Assembly: GCA_916048095.2 (NCBI GenBank)
Contig: OU696572.1
Location: 1,332,501-1,396,500 of the forward strand
DNA from: Sacculina carcini
Lineage: Eukaryota; Arthropoda; Thecostraca; Sacculinidae
Length of the DNA stretch: 64,000 nucleotides
Reading direction: 5' to 3'
Shown here in pieces: positions 20,518 to 64,000 of the stretch. The notes below the pieces were generated by a model that had not been told where the DNA came from, made no database searches, and saw nothing but the letters and a program-made list of their open reading frames with translations. The position numbers and the translations under genes were made by a program. Within the stretch, counting starts at the first letter, position 1. Every line of letters starts with the position of its first letter.

Positions 20518-21042
20518 ACCAGTGACACGCCATCAATGACACGACATCACTGACACGACATCACTGACACGTCACCACTGACACGACACCACTGACACGA
20601 CACCACTGCCACACGACACCACTGACACGACATCACTGACACGACACCACTGACACGACACCACTGACACGACACCACTGACACTACATCACTGACACGA
20701 CATCACTGACACGACATCACTGACACGACATCGCTGACACGACACCACTGACACGACACCACTGACACTACACCACTGACACGACGCCACTGACACGACA
20801 CCACAGACACGACATCACTGACACGACATCACTGACACGACACGACTGACACGACATCACTGACACGACATCACTGACACGACATCACTGACACAACACC
20901 ACTGACACGACACCAATGACACGACACCACTGGCACGACACCACTGACACGACATCACTGACACGACATCACTGACACAACACCACTGACACGACACCAA
21001 TGACACGACACCACTGGCACGACACCACTGACACGACACCAA
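20518..21042 (-). repeat. 14-bp minisatellite, locus 2 (inverted)
   Basis: The same unit in reverse complement (CACTGACACGACAC), about 37 copies with ACATC/ACACC variants. Near 20880-21020 a stretch of about 70 bp is repeated almost exactly, a local higher-order duplication. Confidence 0.95.
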
Positions 21043-30470: not shown

Positions 30471-30602
30471 ATGTCAGCGACCCAGTGCGTTAAGAAGAGG
30501 AAAGTTGACCTCGAGCGTCGGATTTTCAACCCTGAGTGGGAGAAGTATTTTTTCATCGAGCGCTTTGGACAGGCCCAGTGCCTCATATGCTTGAAGACTT
30601 GA
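30471..30602 (+). pseudogene. hAT transposase N-terminal fragment (broken BED finger)
   Basis: Starts ATG and reads MSATQCVKKRKVDLERR..., 43 residues to TGA. It has a KKRKV basic nuclear-localisation-type motif and the first half of a BED finger (CLIC), then stops where the finger should continue to its His pair. The frame differs from the downstream transposase frame, and the sequence jumps straight to the region that lies after the finger in relatives. The cause is an internal deletion with a frame change near 30595. A good acceptor (TTCTCTTTCTTTTTAG) precedes the ATG. Confidence 0.75.
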
Positions 30603-31987
30603 ATAACGTGAGCCTTTCGTCCCGCACCGTTCGTCGCCGCATCGAGGATATGTCGGACAACGTGCACGACTCACTCAAAACACGCCGCTCGAATTTCGTC
30701 GCCTTTTCTCTCGCTCTGGATGAGAGCACCGACACAAAGGACACGGCCCAGCTGTCCATTTTCATTCGCGGCGTCACTGCTGACCTTCAAGTATGTGAGG
30801 AATTCCTGCAGCTTGTCCCGCTACGCAACACCACCACTGGGCAAGACATCTGCGAAGCCGTGCTTTTGTGTGTTGATCAGCACTCTTTGGACCTCTCCCG
30901 TCTTGTATGTGTGACGACCGACGGTGCCCCGGCGATGGTTGGTGAGAAGAAGGGCGCTGCTTCGCTGCTAGTGCGTCACTGTGAAGCTGTCGGATACACT
31001 CAGCCCATTAACAAGATGCACTGCATCATCCACCAAGAGTCCCTGTGCGCTAAGTCTGCCAACCTCGTTGGTGTCATGTCTGTTGTGGTGAAAGTCGTCA
31101 ACTCCATCCTCTCCCGCAGCCTTAACCATCGTCAGTTCCAGGCACTGATAGACGAGGTGAATACGCACTACAACGACCTGCTCTACTTCTGTGAGGTACG
31201 CTGGCTGAGTCGTGGGGCCATGCTGTCTCGGGTGTGCGACCTTCAGCAGGAGATTGCCATATTTTTACGCCAGAAGAACCTTCCCCACGCTGATCAATTC
31301 TCTGATCCGCGGTGGCTAGCTCGCCTGGCCCTGCTCACTGACATCACGGCGCACCTGAACACCCTCAACATGAAGCTGCAAGGCAAAGATATTCTCGTGA
31401 CAGACATGTACGCGCACATTACTGCCTTTGAGGTTAAACTGCGCTTGTGGGAGGCTGAATTGGCTTCTGGTCAGTTCATGCACTTTCCTCGCCTTGCTGC
31501 ATGTGCCGCTGACGATGTGGACCTGAACACATGCGTTAGTGTCGTCAGCACTCTACGTGACGAATTCGCTTCCCGTTTTACAGGAGTCAGGGTGCTGGCT
31601 GCCGACTTCAAGCTTTTCACTGCTCCATTCGACTTTCCCGTGGAAGACGCCCCTGCCTCCCTGCAGATGGAGTTGGTGGAGCTACAATGCAATGATGAAA
31701 TGAAGGCGAAATTCCGCATCTCTTCTCCGCTGCCTTTCTTCCGTGACATTGTTCTCCCTACTAAAAATTTTCAAAAACACATTGCGCATGTCCAACGCAT
31801 TGTGGCCATGTTTGGCAGCACCTATTGCTGTGAACAGCTCTTCTCAAAAATGACGTACACAAAGTCTCGCCTTCGCTCCCAACTCTCAGACCGCCATCTC
31901 AATGACATTCTTTTGTTGTCAACCTCAACCATCGAGCCAGACATGGAAATGCTTCTTCATGGCAAACAACACCAGCAATCTCATTGA
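30536..31987 (+). CDS. hAT transposase, GTF2IRD2/ZBED-like group, N-terminally truncated
   Basis: Cut-and-paste transposase acting on the element's own ends in the nucleus. The open frame has 483 codons. Homology begins near residue 24 (NVSLSSRTVRRRIEDM); the preceding residues are out-of-frame readthrough and the printed Met is probably not the natural start. Catalytic features: first Asp in LALDEST (D62), second Asp in VTTDGAPAM (D129), C-x2-H in MHCIIHQ (C163, H166), EVRWLSRG (R222, W223), and the Glu in the hATC dimerisation block CCEQLFSKM (E433), which continues to residue 465. The core looks intact. What is missing is the BED zinc finger and the linker that should precede it, so this copy probably cannot bind DNA normally. 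Confidence 0.88.
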   Translation: MGEVFFHRALWTGPVPHMLEDLNNVSLSSRTVRRRIEDMSDNVHDSLKTRRSNFVAFSLALDESTDTKDTAQLSIFIRGVTADLQVCEEFLQLVPLRNTTTGQDICEAVLLCVDQHSLDLSRLVCVTTDGAPAMVGEKKGAASLLVRHCEAVGYTQPINKMHCIIHQESLCAKSANLVGVMSVVVKVVNSILSRSLNHRQFQALIDEVNTHYNDLLYFCEVRWLSRGAMLSRVCDLQQEIAIFLRQKNLPHADQFSDPRWLARLALLTDITAHLNTLNMKLQGKDILVTDMYAHITAFEVKLRLWEAELASGQFMHFPRLAACAADDVDLNTCVSVVSTLRDEFASRFTGVRVLAADFKLFTAPFDFPVEDAPASLQMELVELQCNDEMKAKFRISSPLPFFRDIVLPTKNFQKHIAHVQRIVAMFGSTYCCEQLFSKMTYTKSRLRSQLSDRHLNDILLLSTSTIEPDMEMLLHGKQHQQSH

Positions 31988-43723: not shown

Positions 43724-44384
43724 TTGAAGGCTGAATACAGATAACTTAAGAAAGGCTGGATACAGTTAACTTCAATTGGTTTTTTATTCTGAGCTTTGTG
43801 GTTGCTGAGGTTCCTGTGGCACTCGTTTCATTATGGGTATGTTTGGTTCATCTCTACAAGGGCTTCCGAAACCCATTCAAATCGTTAGATTATCACTTCG
43901 GAAGTTCTTCGGAAGTGCTTCCAGGTGCTGCTGAAGGGAATCCAGAAGTGAATCAGAATTTGTCATTCATGGCGCAGTGTAAGGATTAATTTTGTTCATT
44001 TTTGTTTTACTGGCATTTATTTTAAGCCTAATTCGTTCAAAACTGCAACAATTCGTGACTAAATTTGAAACATCGAGAAAATAATAAATTATTGGCAAAA
44101 ATATTAACACGGAGGCGGAAAAAACAACACAACGATTTTCTGATAGACACTTCTGAACTCGTGTTCGAATCATGCACTTGGAAAGTCATTTCTTGTGAAG
44201 TTGTGAATCGAACATACTACTAGCAGCATACAGAAATAGATGGCGTAGATGTGAAGTCATATTGTAGGATATTTTTAATTCGGTCAGAAGGGATAGGAAA
44301 GGAGACATCTGCAATACTCGAAGGGGGGTACCAGCTCTGCTGAATTATCGCTCCCCTCTTGGACATGACATTACAGAAAAGGAA

Positions 44385-44468
44385 GAAGCAGAGGGTCCGC
44401 TTTTAGTCGCCTCTTACGACACGAAGCGGGTACGGCGGCAGTATTCTTATCCACTGACCGCAGGGTCT
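44385..44468. repeat. GC-rich segment resembling a dispersed SINE-like sequence
   Basis: CTTTTAGTCGCCTCTTACGA and the following ACGAAGCGGGTACGGCGGCA stand out from the AT-rich surroundings. I believe similar GTCGTAAGAGGCGACTAA strings are dispersed in invertebrate genomes, but I cannot assign a family. No tRNA-type A/B boxes seen. Confidence 0.3.
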
Positions 44469-44851
44469 CATTTTAAGAGCTCACCACAACTTCCAAGATT
44501 TGTTGGGCGCGCCAGCTCTGGAAGCGCTTCTCAGAATCCCAACAGCTTTGAACTGGAAAATCAACAGATGATAATTAAATAAGTTTCATGTAGAGCAAAC
44601 CTTTAAACAAAAGATTATATAGCATAAACCTAGGATCAGTAATTCGAAATGTAGTTGAATACTACCAAAATAGACGGCGAAAAGATATATATTTATATAA
44701 ATAGCGTAATTTTATTGGCGTTTTCACATTGGATTTTTTAACAAATTATTTTTCATAGTATTTTTCAGTGCTTCGGCTATCTGTCCAATACCTATTTCTA
44801 TACGCAGATTGATATTGTTTGAGTTTACAATGTGTGTGATATTTTTCTGGG

Positions 44852-45099
44852 TTGACTTGTCATTTTCGGTGTTCTATTAGTGACATTTCTTAGCAAAAAA
44901 TTTAACTACAAGCTGGCAACGTTTCTCTCCTGTTTTTCGGAAAAATCATCTATACTGTCCAATATTTGAAGGTTGGGTTAGGTTAAGTTGGGTTAAAACG
45001 ACAAAATCCGCCATATTATAGGCGGAAAAAGCTGCCAGCCTGTAGTTCAATTTTTTGCCATCAGATGTCACTAATAAAACTCCCTAAAAGACAAGTCAA
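44852..45099. repeat. fold-back element with about 69-bp imperfect arms
   Basis: Arm 44852-44920 (TTGACTTGTCATTTTC...GCTGGCAAC) is matched in reverse by 45031-45099 (GCTGCCAGCCTGTAGTT...GACAAGTCAA), with scattered mismatches. The spacer holds GGTTGGGTTAGGTTAAG. This looks like a MITE. Transcribed, it would form a long hairpin. Confidence 0.75.
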
Positions 45100-45582
45100 G
45101 CTTTTTCTGTGATCCTACAAAAAGTGTAATAATCAAGGCTAACTTGATTAACCAGCTTGAATTTTCGTGAATAATTACGATTTAGTTATTTGACTCGACA
45201 TTAATCAGTTGCATTTCTATAGTCTCAGACGCTCGCCACATGAATCCACACCACACACTCGAATGTGATTGTGTCTGTAGCACTGTGTGACCCTCTATAA
45301 ATATAAGTTCATGTCCACAAGGAAGCCATAGGCTATAGCTATAGCTATAGGTGGAATATAGAGGAAACGTATATTGTGGGTGTGACTGTACACACACAAC
45401 ACACGCAACACACACACACACACACGCACGCACACACACACACGCACACACACGCACATATGCACTGGCACACACGCTGACAGCACCTATAATTCCCAAC
45501 CGGCGATCATAAATGAGATAAGCGAGACTGATAACTGATGAAAAACGTAAAGAAATGAGCAGAAACCAGGAGACACGTCGAG

Positions 45583-45617
<35 letters not shown>
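45583..45617. repeat. (CAA)n microsatellite
   Basis: About 11 CAA units; read on the minus strand as (TTG)n. Lies about 0.9 kb past the calbindin stop. Confidence 0.95.
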
Positions 45618-46048
45618 TATATTTAATATAGCGCACATATTTATACACAGGTGCGAAAAAGACACAACACACAGCAACATCCGACACAACCGACAAGAAC
45701 ATCACAGCGAGCAGGGAGTAGGCACAAATAGAACAATGAAAACACGTTTGCAAACTGGAACATGCTAGATGGCCGTTGGCTATCAGATAGCTCATCCGCC
45801 CTTGAAACGAAGATAGACCAAGTGAAGCAAAGAGAAACGAAGAGAAAATAGGAGTAGCAGTGGCGACGCCAAGTGGGAATTTGGAGAAGCTGTAGCAGCC
45901 ATGAAAATGTGCCAGACCCCATGAGCCGACCAAAAATATTGACCACGAACATTTCGATTGTAGTTTGTTATGTTTAGCCAAAGCCCGGTATCCGTATTCC
46001 TGACCTCCCCCATCGGAAAATTACTGGTGCCGCCACTGCTGAGAAGTG

Positions 46049-46452
46049 ATGAAGGATGATGAAGGATGATGAAATATGATGAAGGATAATGAAGGATGAT
46101 GAAGGATGATGAAGGACGATGGATGATGATGAAGGACGATGAAGGACGATGAAGGATGATGAAGGATGATGAAGAACGATGAAGGATGATGAAGGATGAT
46201 GAAGGATGATGAAGGATGATGAAGGATGATGAAGGACGATGAAGGATGATGAAGGATGATGAAGGTCGATGAAGGACGATGGAGGACGATGGAGGACGAT
46301 GAAGGATGATGAGGGATGATGAAGGACGATGAAGGATGATGAAGGATGATGAAGGTCGATGAAGGACGATGGAGGACGATGGAGGACGATGAAGGATGAT
46401 GAGGGATGATGAAGGATGATGAGGGATGATGAAGGATGATGAAGGCTGATGA
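46049..46452. repeat. 10-bp minisatellite beside the 3' end of the calbindin gene
   Basis: About 40 copies of GATGATGAAG(G) with ACGAT and GTCGAT variants. It begins about 35 nt after the calbindin stop on the sense side, where it reads as TCATCATCCT, so it would lie in the 3' UTR or in a terminal intron. Confidence 0.95.
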
Positions 46453-46486
46453 TAGATACAGACAGATGACAAGATGTTGTTTTCAC

Positions 46487-46636
46487 TTACTCGCGTTGTT
46501 CGAGTTCGTCTCCGCTCTTGAACAGAGCCAACATGATCATGGTCAGCTCTTTCTTGTTGATCTTGCCGTCACGGTCGAAGTCGCAGCCCTGCATTATGGC
46601 CTGGCGAAACTCGGCCAGGTCGCCGGCATCGTAATC
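46487..46636 (-). CDS. Cbp53E: calbindin exon 11 (EF6 and stop)
   Basis: Forty-nine codons and TAA. Acceptor CTGTTGGTAG|GAT. It contains the sixth loop DFDRDGKINKKE followed by LTMIMLALFK, and ends SGDELEQRE. The end position agrees with calbindin-32. The stop lies inside CGA|GTAAGT, so splicing to a further exon could replace the last residue and extend the protein. No AATAAA was seen within the next kilobase; an ATTAAA is at 45627-45622. Confidence 0.9.
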   Translation of the reverse strand, partial: DYDAGDLAEFRQAIMQGCDFDRDGKINKKELTMIMLALFKSGDELEQRE

Positions 46637-47659
46637 CTACCAACAGTAGTTTGATAAATGTTGATGCTTAGCTGTAGAAAATAGTAATGAAAACTACATA
46701 TATATTTCTTATGATATATTTTTGTCTCTATTTATGTATAAATGTCTTATTTTTGTTTATATTTTCTATATATTCTGTTTGTTTACACAATTGGTCCGGA
46801 TGTCAGCCATAAAGAGTAATTTATTGAGAAATTCAGTAATCATACTATAATTAACACAATTACACTGAAATTTATATATTATCAAGAATTTCGCTTGGAG
46901 AAATGTGGTTTCTGTAGTGCTATTCTGTCGAGCTGCACATATTTGTACAAGTGTATGCACACAGCTTGCACATTCGCAGGCAGAGATAAATCAATGACCA
47001 AGACGAAACTGAATGGAAAGCACAAGATTACCGGACTAGCGAGCGAGTGCGTTTCTGGGGGCACACAGCTCGAGGATGGAAAATTTACGAGCTCTGTTCG
47101 CTCACATGCGGCGAAAGCCAAGGCGTACGAAGAGCATAGCAAGTACAGAGCAATGCAAATATATGACCTCATTAGAATAGCAGCAGTAGCAAATGGAAAT
47201 ACGAAATAAATTCACTAGATTAACAAATGGGAATTTAAGTGCTTTCCAATCGAAAAATAACAAGTGTGAAGCCAAAATATAAGATTCTCAAATTGAGTGA
47301 ATATTTTGAAAGCAAAATCAATATTTCATAATTTGCGACAGTTATTATTTAAATTTAGTTTGTTCCTGTAGTAATAATCTGTTTTAACGAAAATAAACTT
47401 GATGGATTGAAAATTGTACATCTGAAATTAACACTTGATCATCGCTAGATATTTTTATATTTTTGATTAAATTTTGAAACTTCTACGTATGACAAAATAA
47501 GAGCATGTTAGTATCCCCACACACCCACTCACAACCCTCCACACACACACATAAATACATATGGTACATACACATACATACGGTACATACACATACATAT
47601 GGTACATACACACATATGGTACATACACATACATACAGACACACAGTTCCTTTGAAAAT

Positions 47660-47752
<93 letters not shown>

Positions 47753-49849
47753 ACACTCGTTGAATGAGACTGACTTTTTTGACGAATTCCATGAGGTCTT
47801 TGAGGAAGCCATTCAGCTCGTCTCCTTCAATATTGCCGCTACCATCCTGTTGAATTAAACAAGTTGTTTCCAACTGTTTTCAGCCCAAGATACACAATTC
47901 AGAGCTAAAACACTAGAGATAATCATTGCCCCCGAAAAATTGCAGAAATACCCCTGGGGGATAATTTACGCCCAATTCATCTCTAGGATTGCAACCAATG
48001 AATTAGACAGTATGTTAGAGTATGGTCAGACCAACATTAAAAACAGGACGTAAATACACCCTTTCAAGTAGCCAATTCAGAATGGTAATGACTTGGTCAC
48101 AAATCTTTTCACAAATCACAAATTCATTAGTCTTTCTCATAAGAATATCTCGACAATTTCAACTGAGGGGCTACTTTTAAAGAAGGATGTATTCAATGCT
48201 GCAATACATACTTATTCATCTGCAGGCAAAAGTGTTTGAAAACAAAATGATTTAACTCTTAGAAAACTTCACCAATGTATGTTTGAGTTTCTAAAAAGGC
48301 AAGCGTCTGAGCTCTTTACTGTACTTTCTTAATGTGTCCCGTTGGATTTGTATTGCCCGTTGCATTTTTATTGCCTATATAGAATGTTTGTTGAGCTTTC
48401 ACGAATGCCATTAGACTTCAGCGAAAGCACACAAATCGCGATTAGAGCTCATAAAAAGCTATAAGCGCGACCAAGAAAAGTTCTTTGAGATTCGCTCAAG
48501 CAAAATATTGCTCGATGCATAAGTGCTTGAATTTATCTTGGTGCAAATTTCTAATATGACAGGCTAAACAATCGCCTTTTTGGGATGTAAAAATGATTTG
48601 CGGAAAAATAGGTTCTTAGAGGATTAAAGTTGAGTATTAAACACAGAATAGGTTTTTTATATCCACATTCTAGCCTGTAAGCCTTTAAAAAAAACTACAC
48701 TAAAAACCACCATTAATATTTGAATAGATAACCAACAATTTATGTGATATATTTACTATATGAAAACAATTGTTAACTAAGACTTACCTAGGTTTTAATG
48801 AGGTAAATATAAAAAATTGTTGAGAAAATCTCACCCGATCGTACAGAGCAAACACACGATCCAAATCTTCCCGTCGAATTTTGGCATTGACCTGAAAACC
48901 AATGTCATAATAGAGGAATGCATTTGAAATAACGAGAAAAAAACCTGAATTATTTGTGAATGTTCTTAAAGTTTGTATGTTGGAATTAAATTGTACTATA
49001 ATTGTTTGGGGAATGGATTTTTTAGATGTATCCATGCTTTATCAATGTACCGCTGGATATCGATAAAAATTGGCCATTAAAAATTTAATTTAATTATGTT
49101 TAATCCAGTGATTTGTTAGAACTTTTGTTGCATCGTAAGACTCTATCTAAAATCAAATTAAAATATGTTTTAATAAATTGAAAACTCAATAATCTCATGT
49201 ATAAAAAAGTATTGCATTCAATTATTGCAAATCTATACTAGTGCAGTTTTAACGTCTCTTTCAAATAATTTACCAAGTCCATTTAAAAAAGAATTCATCA
49301 TTTGGTGGGAAATAATTTACGTGATGAAAAGAGAGTTAGAAATTGTAGTTAGAGAGAAATATTTAGGAATAATTCTACAATTATATGATGAGTTGCAAAT
49401 TATACAAAATTAAAGCAGCACGCGATTATAAAATAAATTTGTAAAGATATATAATAACGATTGCTTAAATACACGGGTCTGAAACACAAATGAAAATATG
49501 TGAATTTTCATGAAATAGAAATGGCAGGTGAGTCACATCAATAGGAAATATATCCTTCAATTTTATTGTGTAGAATGAATCAATTTAGAAAAATCAGGAA
49601 ATTGACTTCAAAATCCAGAAAAACTGATGACAATTTCAATTGAATAATGCATAATTAAATCACATCATGTAATAAATATGAATTTATCTGTTATTTTGTT
49701 TGGCTTTCCGTATTTCAAGACAACGTTTTGATGGTGACGGGTGTTCGTATGTGCGTCTGCGATATTGAATACTACTAGCGTAATGTAGCGGAAATTATTG
49801 ACATTTAAGTATCTAATCAACTGTATAAGATGACACACACACACACACA

Positions 49850-49914
<65 letters not shown>

Positions 49915-50035
49915 ACACATACACACACATACACACGCACATACACACGTAATGCAATATCCGTCGGCAAACGGAGTATTTTGCAAAGGTACGATTGCAT
50001 CTTGGAAAATGCATGCAATGACATCTCTATTATCT

Positions 50036-50098
<63 letters not shown>

Positions 50099-52482
50099 AC
50101 ATACACACGCTAGGGAAGAAATGTAGTTACATGTGGACGTATGCGTATCAGATGAATTCAGCTTGGGACCAAAAGTAAATTGAAGAGATAGAGAAGAGAA
50201 GAGATATAGAAGTAACGAGGACGTTTATCACCATCTTAATTTATCATTAATCTAGTCACACGAGCATATGCTTCTCACGAAGTTAGGCAAGTTTTATATT
50301 TGTACACAACGTTTCGGTTGGCATAGATTAGCTCTCATAATATTCACAAATACATGCGCATTTAAACTTTATCTGTCTTGTGAATCAGCTAAAATTAGCA
50401 AGAGTTCAGTCATGGTTTTGATAAATGTAGTCATGGTTTTGATAAATGGTTTTGATAAATGTCATATATCTAATAATGTTTGCTATATTTGGTTACATTT
50501 TATTATATCAGCTATATTATATTATTTTTTAACAATGTTGGCCATTTCTGGCATTTTGACTATTAATTTTTAGCTTTTTTGCTAGCTAAAAATACAAATG
50601 TTCACACTCTGATTTTATTGAGTACCTACGCGATTTAAGTCCACTCTATGATTTGGTCTATTTTCGTTGGATCTCTCACATTTGACATATGTGAGTGTTT
50701 TTGGAGGGATTTGGTGTAATTGCATAAATATTAATAATTGTATCCAAGTGCAAGGCGAAAATTGTATTCAATTTTGTGTAAAAATGGAAATGTTCTCTGC
50801 CTCATATACAGACGGAAAGTGAATCAAGAAAGGACTCACTCCAAAAATTGAACGAGACAAGAAATTCTCCTTAACCGGCAGCAATCTGTCAATTAAATCA
50901 ACACACAAACACACAAACACACAAAAACACAAACACACAAACAAGCACATACACACTGTTATGACTCAAACTGTTGTTGTGTAATTATGTGCTAAGCAAT
51001 ATTATAAATGTCACTATCACCAAATATAAAAACAATATGTCTTCAACTGACGAGCAAAATGGCGACTGAAAGGATGTCCCATTGCACCATATCCAAGAAT
51101 TATGTCCAAGCATCGGGTGCCCTATTACCCTTTCACATTGTTTTATGGTTTAAATCACATCGAAACTCTGATAAATTATTATTTACTTATTAATTATTGT
51201 TGAAATTATGCAAACATAATTAATGTTACCGTTAAAATTTATATACTGACAAAATAATTGTATTTCCTTCCCATCTTCTACAGTACAACTCGTTTCCTTT
51301 ACACAATTTTCTTTTCAATCTTATTTTCTTTCTGCTGTGAGCGTAATGGAACTTTTATGCCCGCATATTTGCTATCAAAGGCCGATGATGGAACAATATT
51401 CGAAAACCGCTTCAGACAAGTGAATCGACCATGAAAATTGATGTCCCAAGCCTTCCACGAACGATTCTGACAATAACTCGCTTGAAAGAGCAAATTCACT
51501 CAGTTCAGATTGCCCTCCAATCTGTTCACTGACAAAAGCGAGATGTTCCTCACTCTTCCATAGATAATTTCCCGTCGGCGCCACGGCGTGTCTAGAGGCA
51601 AACGACACCTCCTGGCTCTGGGAGTAAATTGTGTAATATTTAACGTATCTGTTGTGTGAACACAAAGCTAGAGCGTTGCTCATCTATGGATTCCACAATT
51701 CTTGATGCATATGGACAATTTTAGGACATTGTATGTGTTTGTGTGTGTGTGCTGTTGTTGTAGTTTTGTGAATGGTTCTGATTCCGTTTCACCTGATTTA
51801 TTTTCCACTTATATTTCGTAATAGTATTGCTTATATATGTCTGTCTGTTGATGATATCAGTTATACATTTTATAGCGTTGGTGCTCTTACCACATCACAC
51901 TGTCATTTCATTTTAATAATAATAATAGTAATATTTTCATTATTAAAACAATACAAAAGTACAGCTAATTCATTGATAAAGGAACTTGAGTAAATTGTTA
52001 ATTGTTCTATAGGGGAAACTAATGATTATGTTGAAGTGAATGCTAGAACGCTTCAAACACGCTACACTTCGTAAAGAGATTTAAATGTTATTTTCTTTTT
52101 CCTGCTTTTATATCTCAAATTGCACTCGTGTAACTTTGTGTATGTGTATGTGTGTCCGTGTGTCTGAGTGTGTATGTTCTGTTCTGTGTGTGAGTCTATG
52201 TGTAGATAGCATGATGAACTGAAATCAAACCCCAGGATTCAACTGTCACGAACATTTCCTGTCAAAGTAAGCCTGGCCAATATTATGAGTTAGGATTTCC
52301 CACAGGTTATCGTTAGAGTTGTCAAAAGTTTGCAAAAATGTATAATTCGATTGCTTTGTTATGGTTGATTTTACGCTCTCACTTGGCCATTTCTGACAGT
52401 TGCAGCTTTCCGTCTTGATTGGCATCAAAAACTTTCAGCTGCAGAAAACACACACACACACACACACACCCACCCACACACA

Positions 52483-52539
<57 letters not shown>

Positions 52540-55500
52540 TAAGACATTTATATCGCACCGAAGGTCTCAAAAACACTCACTTTATTTCACCCGAAGGTCT
52601 CAAAAGCACTCACACACATGCACACACTCACCTACATACACACACACACACAAAACAGAAAATCACATATACGCACAAACGCAAACATACATTCCCGTTT
52701 ACATACGTAAAACACATAAATACACACACACACACACACACATTTAAAAAAATAACAGCAACAAAAAAGTAAAAACAAAAACACAGTAAACAACACATTA
52801 ACACAACACAGAAGACATGCAAGGACATACACTCAGATTGACAACACAATAGACACACAAATAAAAACAACAAAACTCAACATAACACACACAGAAAGAC
52901 ATACACTAAAACAAATAGACAGATATCACAACAGACACTGAAACACAAATATGAGGAATCAGCACAACAACACAGATACAGTATACAATGGGAAAACATA
53001 CAGACACAATAACGACAAATACACACACACACATGAAACATATACACATAGAAGACAGAATTAGGGAACAATCACACACACATACACACGCATATATACA
53101 CCCACACACACACACACACACACACACAAAGTGAAACAAACAATTATAACATACTGACTATTTGTATTTAATTAAGAATATATTCACTTGAATACCAAAA
53201 ATTAATAAGATGATTAAAAGACGTTGAAGATTATGCAGTTTAAAAGAGAAAAAATCGGTATAATTTACCATGGTTTCAGTGTATTCGGTGAGTTTTGCGT
53301 CGGATATTTCGGCGGCTTTCGAATCTTTGAGCAAGTCGCACAGAAATTGCTGTAGATCGGAAAAAACAGTGAGCGATTGAGCAAGGCCAAATAGCGCGCA
53401 TTTCGACAAGTTATATTCAAATCGTGCTCTTCTAAACAAAAATGAATCCGCACAGCTAATATTTACATCGCAACAACTCGTTTTCGATTGGTGAAATTTT
53501 GAGAATAATTTTTTATAATTCATAGCATATACACACTGTTGTTTGTTCCCAAATTTGTATTTGTCTTATTTTAATTTTCGTAAAGTTATGCAAATGGATT
53601 GGGTTCGTTATTGGAGATTTAGTCAAGCGTAAAACAACATTTTAGAGAATTTTTTATCTGAAAGCCATAACCTGCCATTTTTATAGTTTTAAACATTATT
53701 TCAGTCCAACATATTCGGGTGTTGAAACAATAGAAATACATTCTAAAATTGTATGCGACATTTACAAGAAAATTTCAGCATACAAATGCAAATTTCTGTA
53801 GAAAATATATCTTTTTGATGAGGCTAAATTAAGTTGATAAAGTCATGATATTGTATAGCTCACAAACGAAATTACGAGCACAGAGAAACAAGAATGTTAC
53901 ATAAAAACTGCCTTACAAATGGCTGATTCCGGTAATTTTCTATGAACACTTCTAAATTCCACTTGACGACTAGCTTATCTACAAGACTACGTTTGTGTCT
54001 AACTATAGATTGTACCTTCAGCTCATTGCTCTCTATGAATCCGGAATGATCACCGTCGTATCGCTGCCATATCTGAAAATATCATGACCAAATTGACAGC
54101 AGTCCATTTGACCAATGTGTGTGTCTGTGTTTTTGTGTGTGTGTGTGTCCGTACCTTCATTTCGGACGAGTCGATAGAACCACTGCAATCTACATCATAG
54201 TGCTTCCAAATCTGCCAAATGATTCGGCCAGGTGAAAATGAAGATTTTACAATAGGAGATGTTTAACACAGGCCGCGTAACAACAATACGTACTGCTAGC
54301 CACGTGCCTTGTTTCTAGCAGACTGAAAATCATTTTACTACCAAACAAAATGGTTAAATATCTAGGAAACCATGCATATCACTGCTACAAATTATAAATA
54401 AAAAATGCAGTGTATTCTAAAAAATTACCAGAAAATTACATTCTATGATTCTTGAGCAGCAATTAGTCCACGAAAAAAATACTTTTTATAATAAGTTTTT
54501 AATAAATTATTGTCTAAAGCTAATGAAAACCTTCAACACATTCTAGCGTGCAAATCTTGTTTTATAATTGTATGCCGTTGAACAGAAATATTTTATTGCA
54601 CAAAAATAATTATTGTAAATTTTGAGTTTGCAGCATGAACAAATAAATAACAGAAAGACTTCGAAACGAAAATATTTAGCTAAAATAAGACCTTTTGCGA
54701 CCCACGGCATATGCACACGCAATACATTGTATCAGAAAAGCAACGACTCTGATATGCCCCTCATAAAATGAAAAATGAAAAATTATATTTGAAATTGTCA
54801 TGCAATATTACACTAGCATCTAGCCAAACGTTTACTTCAATATTTAATATCATATATAACGGAGAATGATTTATTAAATACATATTCGCCTGTATAGAAT
54901 AACATGCATTATTCGAGGATTGAATATCGATTATAAGTAATTTTATATTTTATATGAGTAATTTTTTTTGTGTGTAATCGTTTCAGATCGTTAACATATC
55001 CGCATAATTTCGTTGCATTTCGAAAAAATGATGACAAAAGTTGAAAAAATATAATTTGTGAATACACCCCGAATAATACATCAATGAAAAAATGAAAAAA
55101 ATACATTACAATTTCAATAATTTACCAAGATATTGCAAATTCAGTTACAACTTGTGATTAATTTGACTTTTTCAATTAATGTCTGACAATCCATCTAATA
55201 AGATTAATCACATTCCTACAATTCACACTCTTAGATAATTAAAACACACACAATTGATTTATTTATACGTAAAATTTTCGAATTACATATTTTGTTCTAT
55301 ATAAACGGCAGTTTTATTTGGAATTATACAGTAATTGACGAGCAATCACCTTCATGAAATCAATGCTGGACTCCAGCGGGTTGTCAAATCGAAACAACAG
55401 CAGAAAATTCTCCTCCATCGGTAACAGTTGCGCCAACTGAAAAAAAAAAAAAAAACACACACACATACAATCATCTCTTCAAAAATAGCGTCTTTTGTTT

Positions 55501-58095
55501 TGGCCCAAATATTTTCAATAAACTTCCTTCGCAGTGTAAGAACTGGCTGAATTCAAGCCTTTCAACATTTAAGAACAATATAAAAATTGTTTATTTTTGC
55601 AATAAATATATGAAACTACAGCTGCTTAAACACATTCATGTATGTTGTCTGCATTGAAGCAACATTATATATTATTCTTATATATTCAGCCGTTTACGTA
55701 CTCGTGTCGATTGCTGAAATTGTTCCATGTGTCAACCGTTATAATTATCTGCCGGCATTGGTGACATTCTTGTAGTATCGTGCGTGCAAATTGTGAAAAT
55801 TTTGTAGAAGAAAATATTGTGTAACTGTCATTTACCTTTTGGAATCTACGTTTTGGAATTTGTATGTGTTCATCTAAGAGCTTCGGCTCGATGAACTCTT
55901 GCCAATATAAGCCATTAATTTTTAATGAATTTGTAGATACACACACACACACACACACACATACACATACAAACACATACACACATGCATGCATACACAC
56001 ACAAACATATATACACACAAACACACACACAAACACATACACACATACATACATACATACACACACAAGCACACATACACACACAAATCTTTCTGGACAA
56101 AATTGTCTTACGCAAGTTAGTGTAGTTTTGTGTGGACAATATAAGTTATCCCAGAAAGTATTCCAGCTAAGCTGTCTGAATGATATTGGCACAAATCTCA
56201 TTGCTTCACACATCCACGCTAGCAATTTGTAGACAATTTATTAAGCTATATCGTTGGACTTCTCGGACTCTAGAATACAACGCGGACGAAAACCAGAAAA
56301 ACCAGAAATAACTGACTCATTCGCATACACAAATTAAGCGAGGTTTTCAACCCAGTTTTTGCTAAAAATAGTTTCCTAAGCGTTGTGTGTTAACATAACA
56401 TTCAATCGAATAAAAAATGCGAGTTTGAAACGAATTTAATTAATCTGAATACGCGGAATCAACGAGAAACTACTTTGAGAACGGAAAAAATCTACAAATC
56501 ACAACAAGCTAAAATTCTATATCACTTCATGTTCTAACATTGCTTCAAACGCGTGTAACAGTGGCTTAGAAAAAATACAATACAAGATAGTTCGAGAACA
56601 ACGAGTTAGTAAGGCAGTATATGAGCATAACCCAAGCGAAACCAAAACACTTAACCAGGAAAATTATAGAAACGCTAACACGCAATCACACAAGTCAAAT
56701 ATTTCACATATGAATTCACACACAAACACTACTAGTGATCACATCCACACATTCACATACACACCAACACGCCGCATAAAATACATACAACAAGTAAAAA
56801 TAGTAAGACGGAAAATGACCTAATCTAACCATTTTTAACGTTGCCTACATTAAACATATACTAGGTGAACCACACAAAATGCATTAAACGCACACGCCCT
56901 GCATAAAATACATTAAACATGCTTGTTTTTAGCTGCCCGTCATGTCTCGATGAATTCATTTGTGATATTAAACAGGACGGCAATGTTTTCACAGTGTCTG
57001 CTATATAGATACAAGTTTTTCAATCAGCGACATTCTCAATTTATAGACAATTCAAATCACACTAAATCAGTTCCGAACAGATTGCAAAAGTTACATTGTG
57101 TCGTCAAACTTCATGAAAAGTCCAAATTGAACTATGCTAATATATATACATATATATTTATTATACGATATATGCACTCGTATATATGCATATCTAATGC
57201 TGGCGTCAACGGTGTCGCATTATGTAGTCGTTTGTATCAGATCAATGGTGCATTAACGACCTTGGTGACCATGCATGTTTGTTTGCATGAACGCATGACT
57301 AGGCTTCATGTATCAACCATGCTTTTGTGTGTGTATCTGTGTGCGTGTCCGTGTGTGATTATTGTGTGTATGTTATCTGTGTTGTTTATCTGTCCATTCA
57401 GCAGATGTGTATGTATGTGCGTGTGTCGCTAGTTTGCTAACGCAAGCATTCTTGTGTACGTGCTTGTTTGTTTGTGTGTGTGTGTGTGTGTATGTGTGAG
57501 TGTGTGTGTGTGTGTGTATGTGTGTGTGTGTGTGTGTGGCAGCTCATTTTCTTCATGTGATGAATACGTCCCGTGATGACGACTTCATCTATTTCCCATC
57601 ATCTATTTCTCATCATTTATTTCTCATCATTTATTTCTCATCATTAAGCCATCCATTTTCTGCTCTATAAGTTGCACCGATCCAGCGTAACAACCAACAA
57701 ACTATAAAGATTGATAAAATGTAAATTGTTTATCGATAAAATTATTTTAGCTTCTATAAAACGTGACATATTTCAAATATTATTTATTCAGTTTTCTCCA
57801 TATAATTATATATATATATATAAGTTTCATATAATTTTTCTACGTAGGCTAAATCGAGTGAATCCAACTAAAATTTTAATGATTGAGCTTTTTTGTCAAG
57901 TATATGACGAGTTATCTTTCTTCGAAGAAGTCAGTTTAAAGCTTACCAAATTGTCATATTTTTGGCACTGACTTTTATGCGAATCTCACTATAGACTCAC
58001 TCACTTCGCGTATTTCGATTTTGCCGTCCTGGTTGTCATCGTATGCCTCCATAAAACATTCCCTCAGCTCAGACAGCATCGCATCCGACACGACC

Positions 58096-58154
<59 letters not shown>

Positions 58155-59502
58155 TAAAACACGAATTTACAGTGAGTAATCCTATACACAAACGCGAAAA
58201 AATGCAAGATTTTCAGGAAGGTGGAAGGATTTCAAGTTTATATTGAGATGTGAGATTGAACTCTGCTGTGCTATTTCTCTGTTCAAAATCTTTGTTGTTT
58301 TGGGTGTGCCTCCATTTCAGTGATATAGATGTGAAAAAACAAGATTGTCAATCTTATAATTGGTTATAATTCACTAACTCGCAAATGGAATATTTGATAT
58401 TATCAGGATTTAACTAAAATTGGTGCAAAATATATATATATATTATTTAAATTTAACTGGCAAAGACTCTGAATGAATTATATTCCAGGAGTCTATGATA
58501 TCACCTCAGGTCCACACTCCGTACTGTTCACGCTCGACACGAATTCTCTTAGGAATCCGTCCAGTTCCTTGCCTTCGATGTATCCGTTGCCTGCAGAAAA
58601 CACAAATAAACAACACATATTTGAATTTACCTGCCATTCTTAATATCCCAAGAAATGTTGTGCGTTTTTTGGTGAATGTTGAGGCGATTTAAAATCTATA
58701 CGATATTATTTTCTTGAGTGAAAACCGCCGGAAAACAACGGAATTTTTCTGGCAAAATATTTTATCAACGAGCTTATTAAAAAACGAACAACTGCAAATA
58801 AAATGAAATTAAATATAAATATTTTCCCTGTGAAAAAAACCCAGTTCTTTGTCCTTTTTCGAATAAAAAAAACAAACACTTACGAAAGATTCTATCTATA
58901 TTTCTGTATTCTGAATTTTGTAATGTTTTTCAACCGATGTCTTGGACTGAAAATTAATGACGGCAGATCGTAGTATTGAGCTGTCGACATTGGCCAAATT
59001 CTCCAAACAAAATCCATTGCTCGTCAGCATCTTAGCACAACATTTCTACTAACGAGCACCCGCGGTCAGAGGCGGATTTAGCAACATTCTCCAGAGAATG
59101 CCAAGTATCGGCTGTCAATTGACCTTGTGCATTAACTTTGTGCTTTGTTTGAGAAAATTTATAGTATTCTAAGCTGTGGAATAATTCAACAAACGCATTT
59201 TATGTGTTTTCTCAGCTGCCAATGCTAGGACAACTGACATCCATTGACATTTTTGGTGAATTTGCTGATTGCCGCATAGATCCGCCATTGCTATCTCGGG
59301 CTCACCACCCTAGTTAGCTCTGAAAATTACACACATCTCAATTGGAACTCGTTGCTCGGAACAGTCACAAATTACCCAGTGTGTGTGTGTGTGTTTGGGT
59401 GTGTATCTATGTGCGTGTGTGTATGTGTGTGCTGCGTTGTTTCGATAGGCATACAAATTGGCCTAAGAAACCAACGACAAGGGATCACACACACACACAC
59501 AC

Positions 59503-59569
<67 letters not shown>

Positions 59570-59692
59570 CAAACAAGGATCGCAGACGAGAACACATCTC
59601 ACTCAACAACGAACAATTCGTTTACTGTTTTATAAATGAAGGAAACTGTTGATAATGCGACTCAATTTTGAAGAAGCTTTTTATGCGTGTGT

Positions 59693-59771
<79 letters not shown>

Positions 59772-59953
59772 TGTGTGTGTGTGTGTGTGTTAGAAACTGA
59801 CGTGCATCATTGTTGAAGCTCAACTTTGGCGTATCTTGTTGAAGATCTAGGCAAAATTTGCGATAATGGCATAGGCGAGGACCACAAAATAAATACGATA
59901 CGACTCAAGTGTGGTTTGTGAATACTTGAAACCAGTGAATGCTGTCATCGCGA

Positions 59954-60019
<66 letters not shown>

Positions 60020-62191
60020 CACTGGGAGTTGCACAGTCACGCACAACTAGATACACACATTAGCAAATCTGTTCCACTAGGCGATACTGTGAGTGCACTG
60101 GCGTTAAGTCCCCATTTTGTCTCGCAGATCCTCATCTACCGATTGCAAATTCAGGCTATTTCTATGGTTGTGCTTGCAGTTGCATGACGGTCGGCGTAGT
60201 CTATCATTCTTGCGGTTTTTAGATGTATATAGGGGGTCATCTGGGGGTGCTAACCACTGGATGAAGCTGGTATTTTGCTGAAATAACATATGTGCTTACT
60301 GGTCTACACTAAATGTCCAGATCTGCACGCTAGTTGAATTACTGTCACGTTTCGCAGTTAGTAGAGTTAGCACACTTGTTTCAGCTTCATTTAATGCCAT
60401 CGTGGCAAAAAGTTTTCAAAACGCATGCATACATCATCTATACAGTCGCATGCTAGCCCATACCATATAGAATCTAATCTGGAATTTGAAATTTTCTCCA
60501 TCTTTTATTAATTTTCCCACACAGCGACCAACATAGACCCCAGTTGAAAATTTAAATAAAAACCACGAACAAAAGCGAGAATAAATTATTTTAATTTTAA
60601 TATAAAATATATTTATATCCAAGTAATAGTTGAAGTTATACGAATGTGTTTGTGGTGTGACACAACTTTCGTCTCTCGCCACTTCGCGACCCTACCAGCT
60701 GTGTGTACGCCTGTTAGTTTGTATGTCTGTGTGTCATGATTTTTCTTGTCATTGTGTATGTGTTGTAGGACCATGTGTGTGCGTGAGCTTGTTTGTACGT
60801 GTGTCCGATCATCCTGTCCTGTTATGTCTGTACTTGTAAATACAGTCGGTCCATAGCACTCACGTTGTTAACTTGTGTTGTTCCGTGGCTACCCAAACGC
60901 CACATGTTCATATTTTAACAAGATAAACTTGTAAATATTGTCAGTTTAATTATTATTTAATATTATAATTAATATTTATTATTATTATTTATTATTTAAA
61001 TATTCCAATGCTCGTATATATTCGCAAGCATTCATCTCTAGGCTGAATTTCAACAATACATGTTATACAATACAACAATAATTAATGTTAACAACATAAA
61101 TGGTGCAAATATATCATTAAGTAAAATACGTTATTTTGAATTAATTATACGAGGTAGAGCTATTGGTGAAACTACATGATTTCGCAGGATAATTAGCTCA
61201 CATTTGTCCATTTTTCCTATATGAACCCTCGTATTAGATTTACTAACAACAAGATAAAGACAAGTTAAGATAATTCGTGATAATAAAGTGTTAATATGCA
61301 CTCGCTGTTTCAGATGATCTGCAAATGAGAAAAACAACAGCCGCAAATGAAAACAGGAAGAAAACCTACCTCAGTGAAAATTGACGGCCAATTTTGAAAA
61401 TGAAATTTCCAATTACCAAAAAATTCTACGCACAAGATATCAAATAACAGTTTATGCACTTCAAATTATCCAGGTCTGATCACTTTCTACGCTAATAAAA
61501 AAAAACTATGAACGTATTTTATTAATATTTATATTCAAATAACTTGTATTATGTTTAATATTAATATTATTGTGTGGCGTTTTCATGATGTTATAATGTC
61601 TTAGTTCAATGTTAACTTGAAGAGATATTTTGTGTTTTATCAGTCAAATACTTGAATTTATCTATTTTTTCAATTGTATATAGTTATTGTTATTTTGTTT
61701 GCTAATTTAATTACATTTTATTTGGTTTTAGACACACGAAAATCCTATGCTTTTATGTGATTTTTTAAGAAAAATTTAAATTTGCATATGCATATCATGT
61801 ATTTATCAAAAAGCATCCATTACAAATGGCTTTTCAGCTCTTTGTCGTTTAATTACATAGTGAAATTCGAATAAAGAGTCGATGAATGAAATGTATAAAA
61901 TTGGTGAATGTGCTAAAACACAATATAACGCATAGAAATGGTAAGGTGAAATAAATAAAATCAGATAAAATCAATGCCTCCACTCAAATCAAATCGAATC
62001 CAAACACTCGCAGAATTACAAACGAGGATATGGCGCCCACCATCGGAGTCGTAGTGTTTCCACACGTCCATGAATTGAGCGGCGGTGAGTTTTTTAATCT
62101 GCTGACTCTCGGAGTCGCGAAATTGCCGCATGAAATTGTGCGCTCGCACTGAGCTGGCAGTGGCACCGCTGTCGACAGGTTCTGAGCTCAT
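46487..62191 (-). CDS. Cbp53E: calbindin-32-like six-EF-hand calcium-binding protein (whole gene)
   Basis: Cytosolic Ca2+ buffer/sensor of the calbindin-calretinin-secretagogin family, closest by memory to Drosophila calbindin-32. Coding exons on the minus strand: 62191-62041, 58590-58505, 58094-58005, 55436-55350, then 54211-54155 or 54072-54016, then 53349-53269, 52438-52383, 50885-50840, 48891-48835, 47846-47775 and 46636-46487. All introns are GT-AG and all junctions keep frame. With one copy of exon 5 the product is 310 residues, which as I recall is the Drosophila length. EF loops are at residues 48-59, 98-109, 144-155, 189-200, 236-247 and 280-291. Each has acidic or Asn/Ser ligands at positions 1, 3 and 5, Gly at 6 and Glu at 12, so all six look able to bind calcium. 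The N-terminal RAHNFMRQFRD and the linkers LAQLLPMEENF and LLPVKENFL are family signatures. An in-frame TAG at 62206-62204 supports the start. In flies the family is mainly neuronal and muscle; expression here is unknown. Confidence 0.93.
47660..47748. repeat. (AC)n microsatellite in calbindin intron 10
   Basis: Pure AC run of about 89 bp. On the gene's sense strand it is (GT)n, starting about 20 nt after the weak exon 10 donor. Confidence 0.97.
47775..47846 (-). CDS. Cbp53E: calbindin exon 10 (rest of EF5)
   Basis: Twenty-four codons, DGSGNIEGDELNGFLKDLME and FVKK. Acceptor TTCAACAG|GAT. The donor AAA|GTCAGT is weak at +3. It completes the loop DRDGSGNIEGDE. A (GT)n microsatellite begins about 20 nt after the donor on the sense strand. 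Confidence 0.92.
48835..48891 (-). CDS. Cbp53E: calbindin exon 9 (first part of EF5)
   Basis: Nineteen codons, VNAKIRREDLDRVFALYDR, phase 0 at both ends. Acceptor GGTTTTCAG|GTC and donor CGG|GTGAGA. It supplies the entering helix and the first two residues of the fifth calcium loop. Its 57-nt length matches exon 5, but I saw no duplicate copy of this exon in the flanking introns. Confidence 0.92.
49831..50104. repeat. two (AC)n microsatellites in calbindin intron 8
   Basis: AC runs at about 49831-49947 (with ATAC interruptions) and 50039-50104, separated by about 90 bp of unique sequence. Deep in the intron, not near a splice site. Confidence 0.95.
50840..50885 (-). CDS. Cbp53E: calbindin exon 8 (EF4-EF5 linker)
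   Basis: Forty-six nt encoding the end of Lys203 and LLPVKENFLSRSIFG. Acceptor AATTGACAG|A and donor GGA|GTGAGT. The linker LLPVKENFL is a family signature. Short internal exon in phase 2-0. Confidence 0.9.
52383..52438 (-). CDS. Cbp53E: calbindin exon 7 (EF4)
   Basis: Fifty-six nt, LKVFDANQDGKLQLSEMA plus AA, phase 2 at its end. It contains the fourth loop DANQDGKLQLSE. Acceptor TTTTCTGCAG|CTG. The donor must be AA|GTGAGA, since reading on gives TGA at once. The last two bases join the first base of exon 8 to make Lys203. A (GT)n tract lies upstream of the acceptor on the sense strand. Confidence 0.92.
52447..52538. repeat. (AC)n microsatellite at the exon 7 acceptor
   Basis: CA-rich run starting about 9 nt upstream of the exon 7 acceptor. 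On the sense strand it forms a (TG)n tract in place of a normal pyrimidine tract, followed by TTTTCTGCAG. Confidence 0.95.
53269..53349 (-). CDS. Cbp53E: calbindin exon 6 (EF3-EF4 linker helix)
   Basis: Twenty-seven codons, phase 0 at both ends, residues 158-184 (QFLCDLLKDSKAAEI to EYTETM). Acceptor CGATCTACAG|CAA and donor ATG|GTAAAT. It aligns with the family segment NFLRDLL...YTDTML between the third and fourth EF-hands. Confidence 0.92.
54016..54072 (-). CDS. Cbp53E: calbindin alternative exon 5b (EF3, version b)
   Basis: Nineteen codons, phase 0 at both ends: IWQRYDGDHSGFIESNELK. Acceptor TATTTTCAG|ATA and donor AAG|GTACAA. The loop DGDHSGFIESNE is close to the canonical third EF-hand of calretinin and calbindin-32, so 5b is probably the ancestral form. 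It lies 82 nt downstream of exon 5a. Including both exons would stay in frame but would put two loops head to tail without a proper helix between them, so exclusive use is more likely. Confidence 0.9.
54073..54154 (-). promoter_or_regulatory. 82-nt intron between alternative exons with CA-rich element
   Basis: On the sense strand the intron starts GTACGG and runs straight into CA-rich sequence (two short CA runs, roughly positions +6 to +38), then ends TATTTTCAG. Sense CA repeats are the known binding preference of hnRNP L-type proteins, which regulate exon choice. A role here is inference from position. At 82 nt the intron is short but not clearly below the usual minimum. Confidence 0.45.
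54155..54211 (-). CDS. Cbp53E: calbindin alternative exon 5a (EF3, version a)
   Basis: Nineteen codons, phase 0 at both ends: IWKHYDVDCSGSIDSSEMK. Acceptor TTTGGCAG|ATT and donor AAG|GTACGG. It encodes the end of the entering helix, a complete 12-residue loop (DVDCSGSIDSSE) and the start of the exiting helix. It has the same length and phase as exon 5b and matches it at 11 of 19 residues. It reads as an intact paralogous exon, with no stop and with consensus splice sites, so it is probably used as an alternative to 5b. It diverges more from the family consensus than 5b, with Cys at loop position 4. Confidence 0.85.
55350..55436 (-). CDS. Cbp53E: calbindin exon 4 (EF2-EF3 linker)
   Basis: Twenty-nine codons, phase 0 at both ends, residues 110-138, from LAQLLPMEENFLLLFRF to SSIDFMK. 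The acceptor lies directly behind a run of about 17 T on the sense strand. The donor is AAG|GTGATT. The block between EF2 and EF3 is strongly conserved in the family. Confidence 0.93.
58005..58094 (-). CDS. Cbp53E: calbindin exon 3 (EF2)
   Basis: Thirty codons, phase 0 at both ends, residues 80-109. It contains the complete second EF loop DDNQDGKIEIRE preceded by CFMEAY. The donor is GAA|GTGAGT. The acceptor GTGTAAAG|GTC is preceded directly by a (TG)n tract instead of an ordinary polypyrimidine run, which makes this the least orthodox acceptor in the gene. Confidence 0.9.
58097..58152. repeat. (AC)n microsatellite at the exon 3 acceptor
   Basis: Abuts exon 3. On the sense strand it reads (TG)n followed by TAAAG, so it takes the position of the polypyrimidine tract. 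Confidence 0.95.
58505..58590 (-). CDS. Cbp53E: calbindin exon 2 (second half of EF1)
   Basis: Acceptor TTTTCTGCAG|GC and donor GAG|GTGATA. It completes the first loop as DSDGNGYIEGKE and continues LDGFLREFVSSVNS. It encodes residues 51-79 and ends in phase 0. It follows a 3450-nt intron 1. Confidence 0.92.
59065..59291. mobile_element. MITE in calbindin upstream intron 1 region
   Basis: Left CAGAGGCGGATTTAGCA and right CGCATAGATCCGCCATTG are imperfect inverted repeats, 227 bp apart end to end. It lies within intron 1 of the calbindin gene. No clear 8-bp duplication. Confidence 0.55.
59487..60022. repeat. cluster of three CA/GT microsatellites in calbindin intron 1
   Basis: AC at 59487-59568, GT at 59691-59790 and AC at 59956-60022. 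Neighbouring AC and GT runs of opposite sense could pair in the pre-mRNA. Confidence 0.95.
62041..62191 (-). CDS. Cbp53E: calbindin exon 1 (start codon, first half of EF1)
   Basis: Encodes residues 1-50 plus one base, starting MSSEPVDSGA and ending WKHYDSD inside the first calcium loop. The donor is G|GTGGGC (phase 1). The base before the intron joins GC of exon 2 to restore Gly51. The ATG has A at -3, and a TAG lies five codons upstream in frame. No TATA box was recognised within about 300 bases upstream. Confidence 0.9.
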
Positions 62192-62265
62192 GCTGTCCAG
62201 GTTCTATCACCGACAATCTACACAGCAGCAACATTGCAATAATGGGAATTAGGATGTTTCGTCCA

Positions 62266-62370
62266 GGGTACGTTTGGTCCCGCTTCAGTCGCGGCTCTAT
62301 CTCTCAAATATTGTTGGCTTAGCTTAGGTAAGGTCAGGAAGCCGGCAATGAAGCGGGAACAAACGTACCC
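62266..62370. repeat. 22-bp inverted repeat upstream of the calbindin start
   Basis: Arms 62266-62287 and 62349-62370 are complementary with a single mismatch and a 61-bp spacer. The left arm begins GGGTACGTTTGGTCCC. It lies 75-179 nt before the ATG on the gene's sense side, so it falls in the 5' UTR or promoter. It looks like a small fold-back/MITE core, although no target duplication was recognised. Confidence 0.6.
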
Positions 62371-62645
62371 GAGGCGTAATATCCCCAGTTTGGAAAACAT
62401 TACAAATCTCGACTTGATTTTAAAAACATTCCACGGCAAACGGCATATCTCATGTTCTTGTGTCATAATTAAGATTTATTTTGCATAAATCTACACACAC
62501 ATGTGCTCCCTTGTATATATACTCAAGGGATCATAAATCTATTTATAAATCTAAATCTATAATCTATATATAATCTATATAAGATTTATATATATATATA
62601 TATATAAATCTACACATGTGCTCCCTTCTGCTTGTGCTTGATGTG

Positions 62646-62724
62646 TCTGTAGTCACTGACGAAGGTCTCAAGACCGAAACGTTTGACTAAAGTGGCTGTC
62701 ATTTGTGTTTTCTTCTCTCTCTTC
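62646..62724. repeat. partial copy of the palindromic short element
   Basis: It is the reverse complement of 13250-13325 through the core and one arm (GTCATTTGTGTTTTC...CTCTTC), and is followed by a short TA repeat. The other arm is missing and replaced by unrelated sequence. It lies about 460 bp upstream of the calbindin ATG. Confidence 0.6.
62651..62688 (+). ncRNA. hammerhead-ribozyme-like core (copy 1)
   Basis: Read in order: AGTCA, CTGACGA, A, GGTC-TCAA-GACC, GAAA, CGTT, TGACT. This matches the hammerhead order: stem I strand, CUGANGA, stem II hairpin, GAAA, a very short self-complementary stem III (ACGU), UH, then the other stem I strand. One extra A lies between CUGANGA and stem II compared with the consensus. 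Such minimal type-I motifs act as dimers in Penelope-like elements and retrozymes. Activity is unproven; a chance resemblance fixed in a repeat is possible. Confidence 0.35.
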
Positions 62725-62729
62725 ATATA

Positions 62730-64000
62730 TATATATATACAATTTTCTTACAAGCGGCTATTTTTGACGAAGCTGACAACGTGACGAGACAGCCTGTCAG
62801 TGAATAGACTGAGTGATTGTCATTGCGGCATGATTGATCTATTATTTTGACTCTTCTCTCTTCCTATCTGCACTGCGACGTCTGAGAGACTCACAGAGTG
62901 TGTGAGGCCAAATAGATCTGTGTCGGAAGCAATGCGAGAGAGAAAGCCTTGCTCAGGCGGCAAATGGCCTGACGAGCTGAGGAAATTTTGTTATTTGCCA
63001 GATACTAATGAGCTGTGATGGAACTAATTCGATCGCAACCAATCCTGCACAGATATTCAATTGTCCGTTGAATAATTATATATTTATTAATTTCATTTAT
63101 GTCTTTATTGCGTCCAAATGATTAAATTTAGCATAACTATTTTGTGCTATTTTCATCAGTTTAAGATTGATAATATACGTGAAAGCGACTAAACACATTG
63201 AACATTTGATAAACATGCTCATGCTATTTCAAGAGTTACTCGGTTGAATGAAATATTTGCACAGCAAGTTAGAGGTACGATTGACAACATAGACAAAACG
63301 ATATGTTTGAGAAATGCAGAACATCCAGAGGGGATAGGCCAACAAGATGCCCTTAGGGTGCGCTAGGTCAAGAAGGTGCACCTATAAGTAAATATATTGA
63401 GCTTTTTAATTATATCATGCTTCTAATTCTTCTCGTTTTATAATCGTAGATGTCAAATAACTTCTTAATCAGCCCGAGTCAAAGAAGATTTGAACGAAGC
63501 GAGGCTTTTCTGATTTTCTCATCCAATTAATGTCTTTTTACGCTACAGATTCACAACAAGAGAAGGAAATTGACACCAGCTTAATGCTAGCTGAATAACC
63601 GTTATGAAATGATCCTTGATATATTTCACTTCTACATATTTGATTTCAAATCCTTGATAACAAGGCAGTTTATCAATTGGAATTTCTCAGTTCACGAATA
63701 ATAAGAATACACGTATTAAATTCAGTTATTCTATACCATTTGCATTTTGATTGAATCCCAGCGGCTTCATTGTATATGCAGGTCAATGTTAAACATCTCC
63801 TACTCCTGTATTTCTTTTAGTCTGCTTATCTATTGGTCAGTTTTTAATACAGTAATCTATTAATCATTATTAAAATTCATACAAATAATATATTATCGAA
63901 TCAATTATAAGTGTTACTAAAGGAATTTATTGAATAATATTTGATTTTTGTGCAGTAGTTTGTGAATATCCGTAAGGATAAATATATTTATTGCCATTTT
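62730..64000. other. upstream flank of the calbindin gene, no gene recognised
   Basis: AT-rich sequence on the promoter side of the calbindin gene. A few GC-richer blocks (62760-63000) could hold regulatory sites or an untranslated first exon, but I see no clear TATA box or donor to call one. Confidence 0.5.

Follow-up and report, generated by a model that had tools for sequence, protein, structure and literature searches.

Predicted alternative use of two tandem exons for the third EF-hand of a calbindin-32-like gene in Sacculina carcini

The window, as we call the 64,000 nucleotides of Sacculina carcini contig OU696572.1 analysed here (assembly GCA_916048095.2, positions 1,332,501 to 1,396,500), carries a gene on its minus strand that we model in 12 exons, with AG/GT at all borders between coding exons (Table 1). 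Position 5 of the model is occupied by two adjacent exons, 5A and 5B, each of 57 nt, in phase 0, preceded by AG and followed by GT. Their coordinates and translations (IWKHYDVDCSGSIDSSEMK and IWQRYDGDHSGFIESNELK) agree with the original prediction, and recomputation gave the same count of 11 of 19 residues in common. The complete 12-residue calcium loop proposed for each exon is also present; direct reading places canonical ligands at positions 1, 3, 5, 9 and 12 and Gly at position 6 in both. One detail departs from it: whichever of 5A and 5B is used, the protein of the 12-exon model is 316 residues long, against the predicted 310. Inclusion of both exons would yield 335 residues and of neither 297, in frame in every case. 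An exon of 57 nt holds a whole number of codons, and the reading frame therefore does not enforce exclusive use. The intron between the two exons is the shortest of the gene (82 nt, next shortest 410 nt).

No third copy of the exon was detected when both strands of the window were scanned for 19-mers resembling EF-hand 3. Exons 5A and 5B each scored 107, which is a self-score because both sit in the reference set of the scan, and the next best score, 40, belonged to EF-hand 1 of the same gene. The 19-residue A peptide has one match in its own genome, the window itself.

Table 1. Positions in the window of the exons of the calbindin gene model and of the intron separating 5A and 5B.
Feature	Position	Strand	Description
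Exon 1	62041..62191	-	Start codon, first part of EF-hand 1
Exon 2	58505..58590	-	Remainder of EF-hand 1
Exon 3	58005..58094	-	EF-hand 2
Exon 4	55350..55436	-	Upstream partner of 5A/5B, ends FMK
Exon 5A	54155..54211	-	EF-hand 3 variant A, IWKHYDVDCSGSIDSSEMK; loop DVDCSGSIDSSE, Asp at loop position 9
Intron 5A/5B	54073..54154	-	82 nt; pairing with exon 5A possible at its 3' end
Exon 5B	54016..54072	-	EF-hand 3 variant B, IWQRYDGDHSGFIESNELK; loop DGDHSGFIESNE, Glu at loop position 9
Exon 6	53269..53349	-	Downstream partner of 5A/5B, begins QFLCDLL
Exon 7	52383..52438	-	EF-hand 4
Exon 8	50840..50885	-	
Exon 9	48835..48891	-	
Exon 10	47775..47846	-	EF-hand 5
Exon 11	46491..46636	-	EF-hand 6
Exon 12	44531..44552	-	Final codons and stop; least certain, located solely from reading frame and acceptor

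A 14-nt minisatellite (GTGGTGTCGTGTCA, in either orientation) forms long arrays at 15518-15936, 20512-21041 and 25645-27978, with 30 to 164 copies per array across 12 kb, and a 10-nt tandem repeat (TGATGAAGGA, ∼ 41 copies, 46047-46452) lies within the last calbindin intron. CA/TG runs of at least 10 nt make up 4.7% of the window, and in the calbindin gene TG runs stand immediately ahead of the acceptor sites of exons 3 and 7. On the plus strand, an open frame of 483 residues (30536-31987) has a single Pfam match, DUF4371, below cut-off (E 0.00062); by eye we take it to resemble a hAT-type transposase.

Judged by its homologues, the calbindin gene is a relative of arthropod calbindin-32 (Cbp53E), a hexa-EF-hand protein. 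A protein search, with permitted lengths between 0.55 and 1.75 times that of the query, returned 1067 homologues at E ≤ 0.001. The best 120 of these are 65-79% identical over 90-100% of the query, and most of the named ones are arthropod calbindin-32 or calbindin 53E. Pfam assigns EF-hand families to both forms. In the PDB, form B retrieves secretagogin and calbindin (seven distinct sequences at E ≤ 1e-10, best 1.6e-73). The AlphaFold model of an A-type relative (P0001) has a mean pLDDT of 65.7, with 78-84 for the blocks of the 19-residue segment corresponding to exon 5 (hereafter the slot). It shows the expected helix-loop-helix, with the slot running from the last part of the entering helix through the loop into the first part of the exiting helix; the model is too weak for a comparison of the variants. 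The solved structures closest to this model of modest confidence are again vertebrate secretagogin and calbindin-D28k. A gene tree of 42 of the best 120 homologues and the window, from which the 19-residue slot was omitted, joins the window to P0001 (support 98) and groups both with Amphibalanus and Pollicipes (support 95, four rows). The branches are long and the tree was built by a quick method, so the placement of long-branch rows is uncertain.

In the region of exons 8-12, other crustacean and insect isoforms show further differences: small inserts, located between EF4 and EF5 and ahead of the DYDA in EF-hand 6, and a longer C-terminus. A decapod-like alternative C-terminal exon (...LRVRHFVNRTLG) was sought with loose patterns in all six frames of the window and gave no match.

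Exons 5A and 5B are identical at 30 of 57 nucleotides. The 27 differences are distributed 6/7/14 over first, second and third codon positions (19 of each); dN is 0.42 and dS is not calculable (NG86). When 27 random substitutions were placed in either exon, at least 11 residues were kept in 0 of 20,000 trials each way, and a stop codon arose in over half of the trials (10,810 and 12,332 of 20,000). The nucleotides have diverged while the protein was kept, so neither exon looks dead, and the constraint statistics indicate that both copies have long been selected as protein. These data support the view that the EF-hand 3 exon was duplicated in tandem long ago and that both members of the pair are under constraint.

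All of the best 120 of the 1067 homologues have exactly one 19-residue unit at the slot (two or none, 0/120). Slot positions 1, 3 and 12 are D, D and E in each of the 104 rows among them that were caught by our pattern. Loop position 9 is Glu in 111 of the 120 and Asp in nine, a count that is descriptive and no independent test, since it is the Asp itself that labels the 'alternative' type. The Asp rows include two of A-type, P0001 and P0003 (Pollicipes X2), which share 16/19 and 13/19 residues with exon A. The remainder (P0004, P0005, P0006, P0007, P0008, P0010 and P0054) have the decapod-like pattern HNG(F/Y)IDS(N/V)ELK, and those named are from Homarus, Panulirus, Procambarus, Cherax and Macrobrachium. 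None of the nine is named as insect, mite, myriapod or copepod. The slot of P0001 is closer to A (84%) than to B (10/19), and the rest of the protein is 81% identical. P0001 has 318 residues and is encoded on a contig of 1,692 nt. As the gene in the window spans > 17 kb, this contig must derive from spliced RNA; the nearest relative among the matches listed would accordingly transcribe an A-type exon and use it by itself. P0006 and P0007 likewise lie on short contigs (2,540 and 2,802 nt).

Both forms within one species were found, among the best 120 homologues, in decapods only and in no single barnacle. Homarus X3/X4, Panulirus X3/X4 and Procambarus X5/X2 each differ at eight residues, all of them in the slot and none outside; the two Procambarus records come from different source databases. 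In these three pairs, as in the window, position 9 is Asp in one form and Glu in the other. Other pairs differ more widely: Panulirus X4 and X5 also diverge in an insert and at the C-terminus, and Cherax X4 and an OTU49 protein show seven differences in the slot and 16 outside. From the naming convention we take the decapod 'isoform X' records to be automatic predictions.

The decapod comparison raises the case for one-at-a-time use of the two exons from a guess to a well supported prediction. Exon 4 would join either 5A or 5B, which would then join exon 6, and the outcome would be two calcium buffers of 316 residues and six EF-hands each, identical except at site 3. Very probably, then, an old tandem duplicate of EF-hand 3 is spliced in as one copy or the other, presumably to tune site 3. 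The tandem duplication of the original prediction stands, and single use is borne out in relatives by the three decapod pairs and the 120 single units. We infer that S. carcini would use the exons alternatively and strictly exclusively, with an effect on binding kinetics.

In a tree of the 19 slot columns (47 distinct sequences), P0001 and Pollicipes fall together with window A, set off from the other sequences by a branch with support of 93.8/93. The A group adjoins the decapod alternative forms, and window B falls on the canonical Glu-9 side; support for the branch that separates the two sides is modest (SH-aLRT 76.7, bootstrap 85). The Glu form is also found in Lepeophtheirus P0046, the only row named as a copepod among the best 120, and in the six rows grouped with it in the 43-row tree. 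In the NCBI taxonomy, Communostraca has two members, Malacostraca (with the decapods) and Thecostraca (with the barnacles). A single origin in Communostraca, in the ancestor of barnacles and decapods, is possible and perhaps likely on these grounds. The exon may instead have been duplicated independently in the two groups, the likeness of the pairs being convergence, and we put this somewhat short of an even chance. Homarus X4, which has the alternative form of decapods, shares more residues with window B (14/19) than with A (12/19), as independent duplication would allow, and there are just 19 columns to compare. The division of the slot tree, for all its modest support, the Asp on one side and Glu on the other at position 9, and the pairing of Malacostraca and Thecostraca in Communostraca argue against it. 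If barnacles and lobsters did inherit the pair jointly, the choice has been kept since their common ancestor.

One mechanism by which the choice could be made exclusive is RNA pairing: the first ∼ 35 nt of 5A would pair with the branch-point/acceptor region of 5B and hide 5B when A is used. The duplex has a predicted energy of −31.9 kcal/mol, whereas shuffled pairs averaged −18.9 (sd 3.6) and 2 in 1,000 of them were as good; it ranks second of the 156 exon-by-acceptor pairs of the gene, and the helix is present in minimum-energy folds too. However, the pairing was first spotted in a fold, so the duplex test is not independent, and the folding energy of the region is ordinary (z −1.47, 14/200 shuffles as good; over 351 nt, z 0.43, 64/100). 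We therefore consider this mechanism doubtful. Steric block is not settled by the distances in the 82-nt intron, where candidate branch points lie 46-73 nt from the donor, and the intron is not clearly too short for splicing. Its CA run was considered as a regulator and set aside: when the gene body is taken in stretches of 82 nt, 12.6% have a CA/TG run on either strand and 3.0% have CA on the transcribed strand. The latter figure is mildly unusual, but the feature was examined after the fact. The introns flanking the exon pair contain seven imperfect AT-rich inverted-repeat pairs, and no Rfam families were found in 44000-64000. We speculate that one duplication in the barnacle-malacostracan ancestor gave rise to an Asp/Glu switch at position 9, kept as a tissue- or stage-specific choice of buffer speed, with RNA of 5A masking the acceptor of 5B; this combined scenario is a long shot.

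Two further readings concern the fate of the exons themselves. Both might often be included together, giving an extra EF-hand unit, or one might be an ordinary cassette exon. The frame would be kept with both or with neither, and joining of 5A to 5B would use a GT donor and an AG acceptor. Against this, the slot holds neither two units nor none in any of the best 120 homologues, although the search admitted lengths at which such proteins would have been retained, and a 19-residue insert with partial helices would be expected to disturb the paired EF-hand lobe; we regard this reading as very unlikely. That one exon is a decaying relic, out of use, is no better a prospect and scarcely credible: the 5B donor is the weakest of the 12 donors (0.39, versus 4.31 for 5A, in a simple score on consensus frequencies) and the sequence of B has moved away from that canonical in arthropods (12/19 to Amphibalanus X2), but both exons are open, constrained and retain ligand positions and AG/GT, B is free of frame or ligand damage, and the match of A to the spliced A-type exon of P0001 is as close as that of the remaining protein.

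Under alternative use of 5A and 5B, the swap would tune site 3 rather than switch it off, as both loops are complete, and such tuning is likely to be its point. Residue 9 of an EF-hand loop sets the speed of calcium binding. The exchange of Asp (A) for Glu (B) at this position should alter binding speed or affinity; PMC5983762 describes position 9 as the water-bridged −X ligand. A literature search on position-9 kinetics gave no match. If the reading holds, the gene would offer a natural test of how much site kinetics matter in neurons or muscle, since nothing else in the protein changes. Buffering by calbindins is usually regarded as fixed and governed chiefly by the level of expression.

The claim that such a swap is unreported in the calbindin family holds for print, within the titles and abstract openings that our search covered: no report of a calbindin with mutually exclusive or duplicated EF-hand exons was found there. 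It does not hold for the databases, which already contain the swapped decapod isoforms as predicted proteins. Two papers on Drosophila Cbp53E (PMC4500412, PMC12934590), when searched for splice terms, gave no such isoforms. A search for splice variants of the crayfish sarcoplasmic calcium-binding protein returned unrelated matches only. Vertebrate secretagogin and calbindin-D28k are the best relatives of solved structure, by sequence for form B and by fold for P0001. We know of no swap of the third EF-hand in either.

The exon swap itself is known from other proteins, and on the literature found it is the calbindin family that would be new. As summarized in PMC9177970, the P/Q-type calcium channel, OGDH and the actinins share one pattern: duplicated exons, in many cases separated by a short intron, that change how the protein responds to calcium. 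The calbindin pair resembles the channel and OGDH in its duplicated exons and short intron, but these are a channel and an enzyme. Exons 4a and 4b of OGDH specify Ca2+-insensitive and -sensitive forms, and PMC7969005 attributes their exclusivity to distant branch points, whereas in the calbindin pair the branch point could not be fixed. Mutually exclusive duplicated EF-hand exons are described for alpha-actinin in PMC9177970, which cites a chick alpha-actinin paper of that title and has this splicing limited to chordates. As far as that account goes, alpha-actinin is like the calbindin pair in having duplicated exons of the EF-hand region used one at a time, but it is a cytoskeletal cross-linker and not a six-EF-hand buffer. 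The EF-hand splice forms of alpha-actinin differ in calcium sensitivity; in the calbindin pair, by contrast, the ligand positions are kept in both loops.
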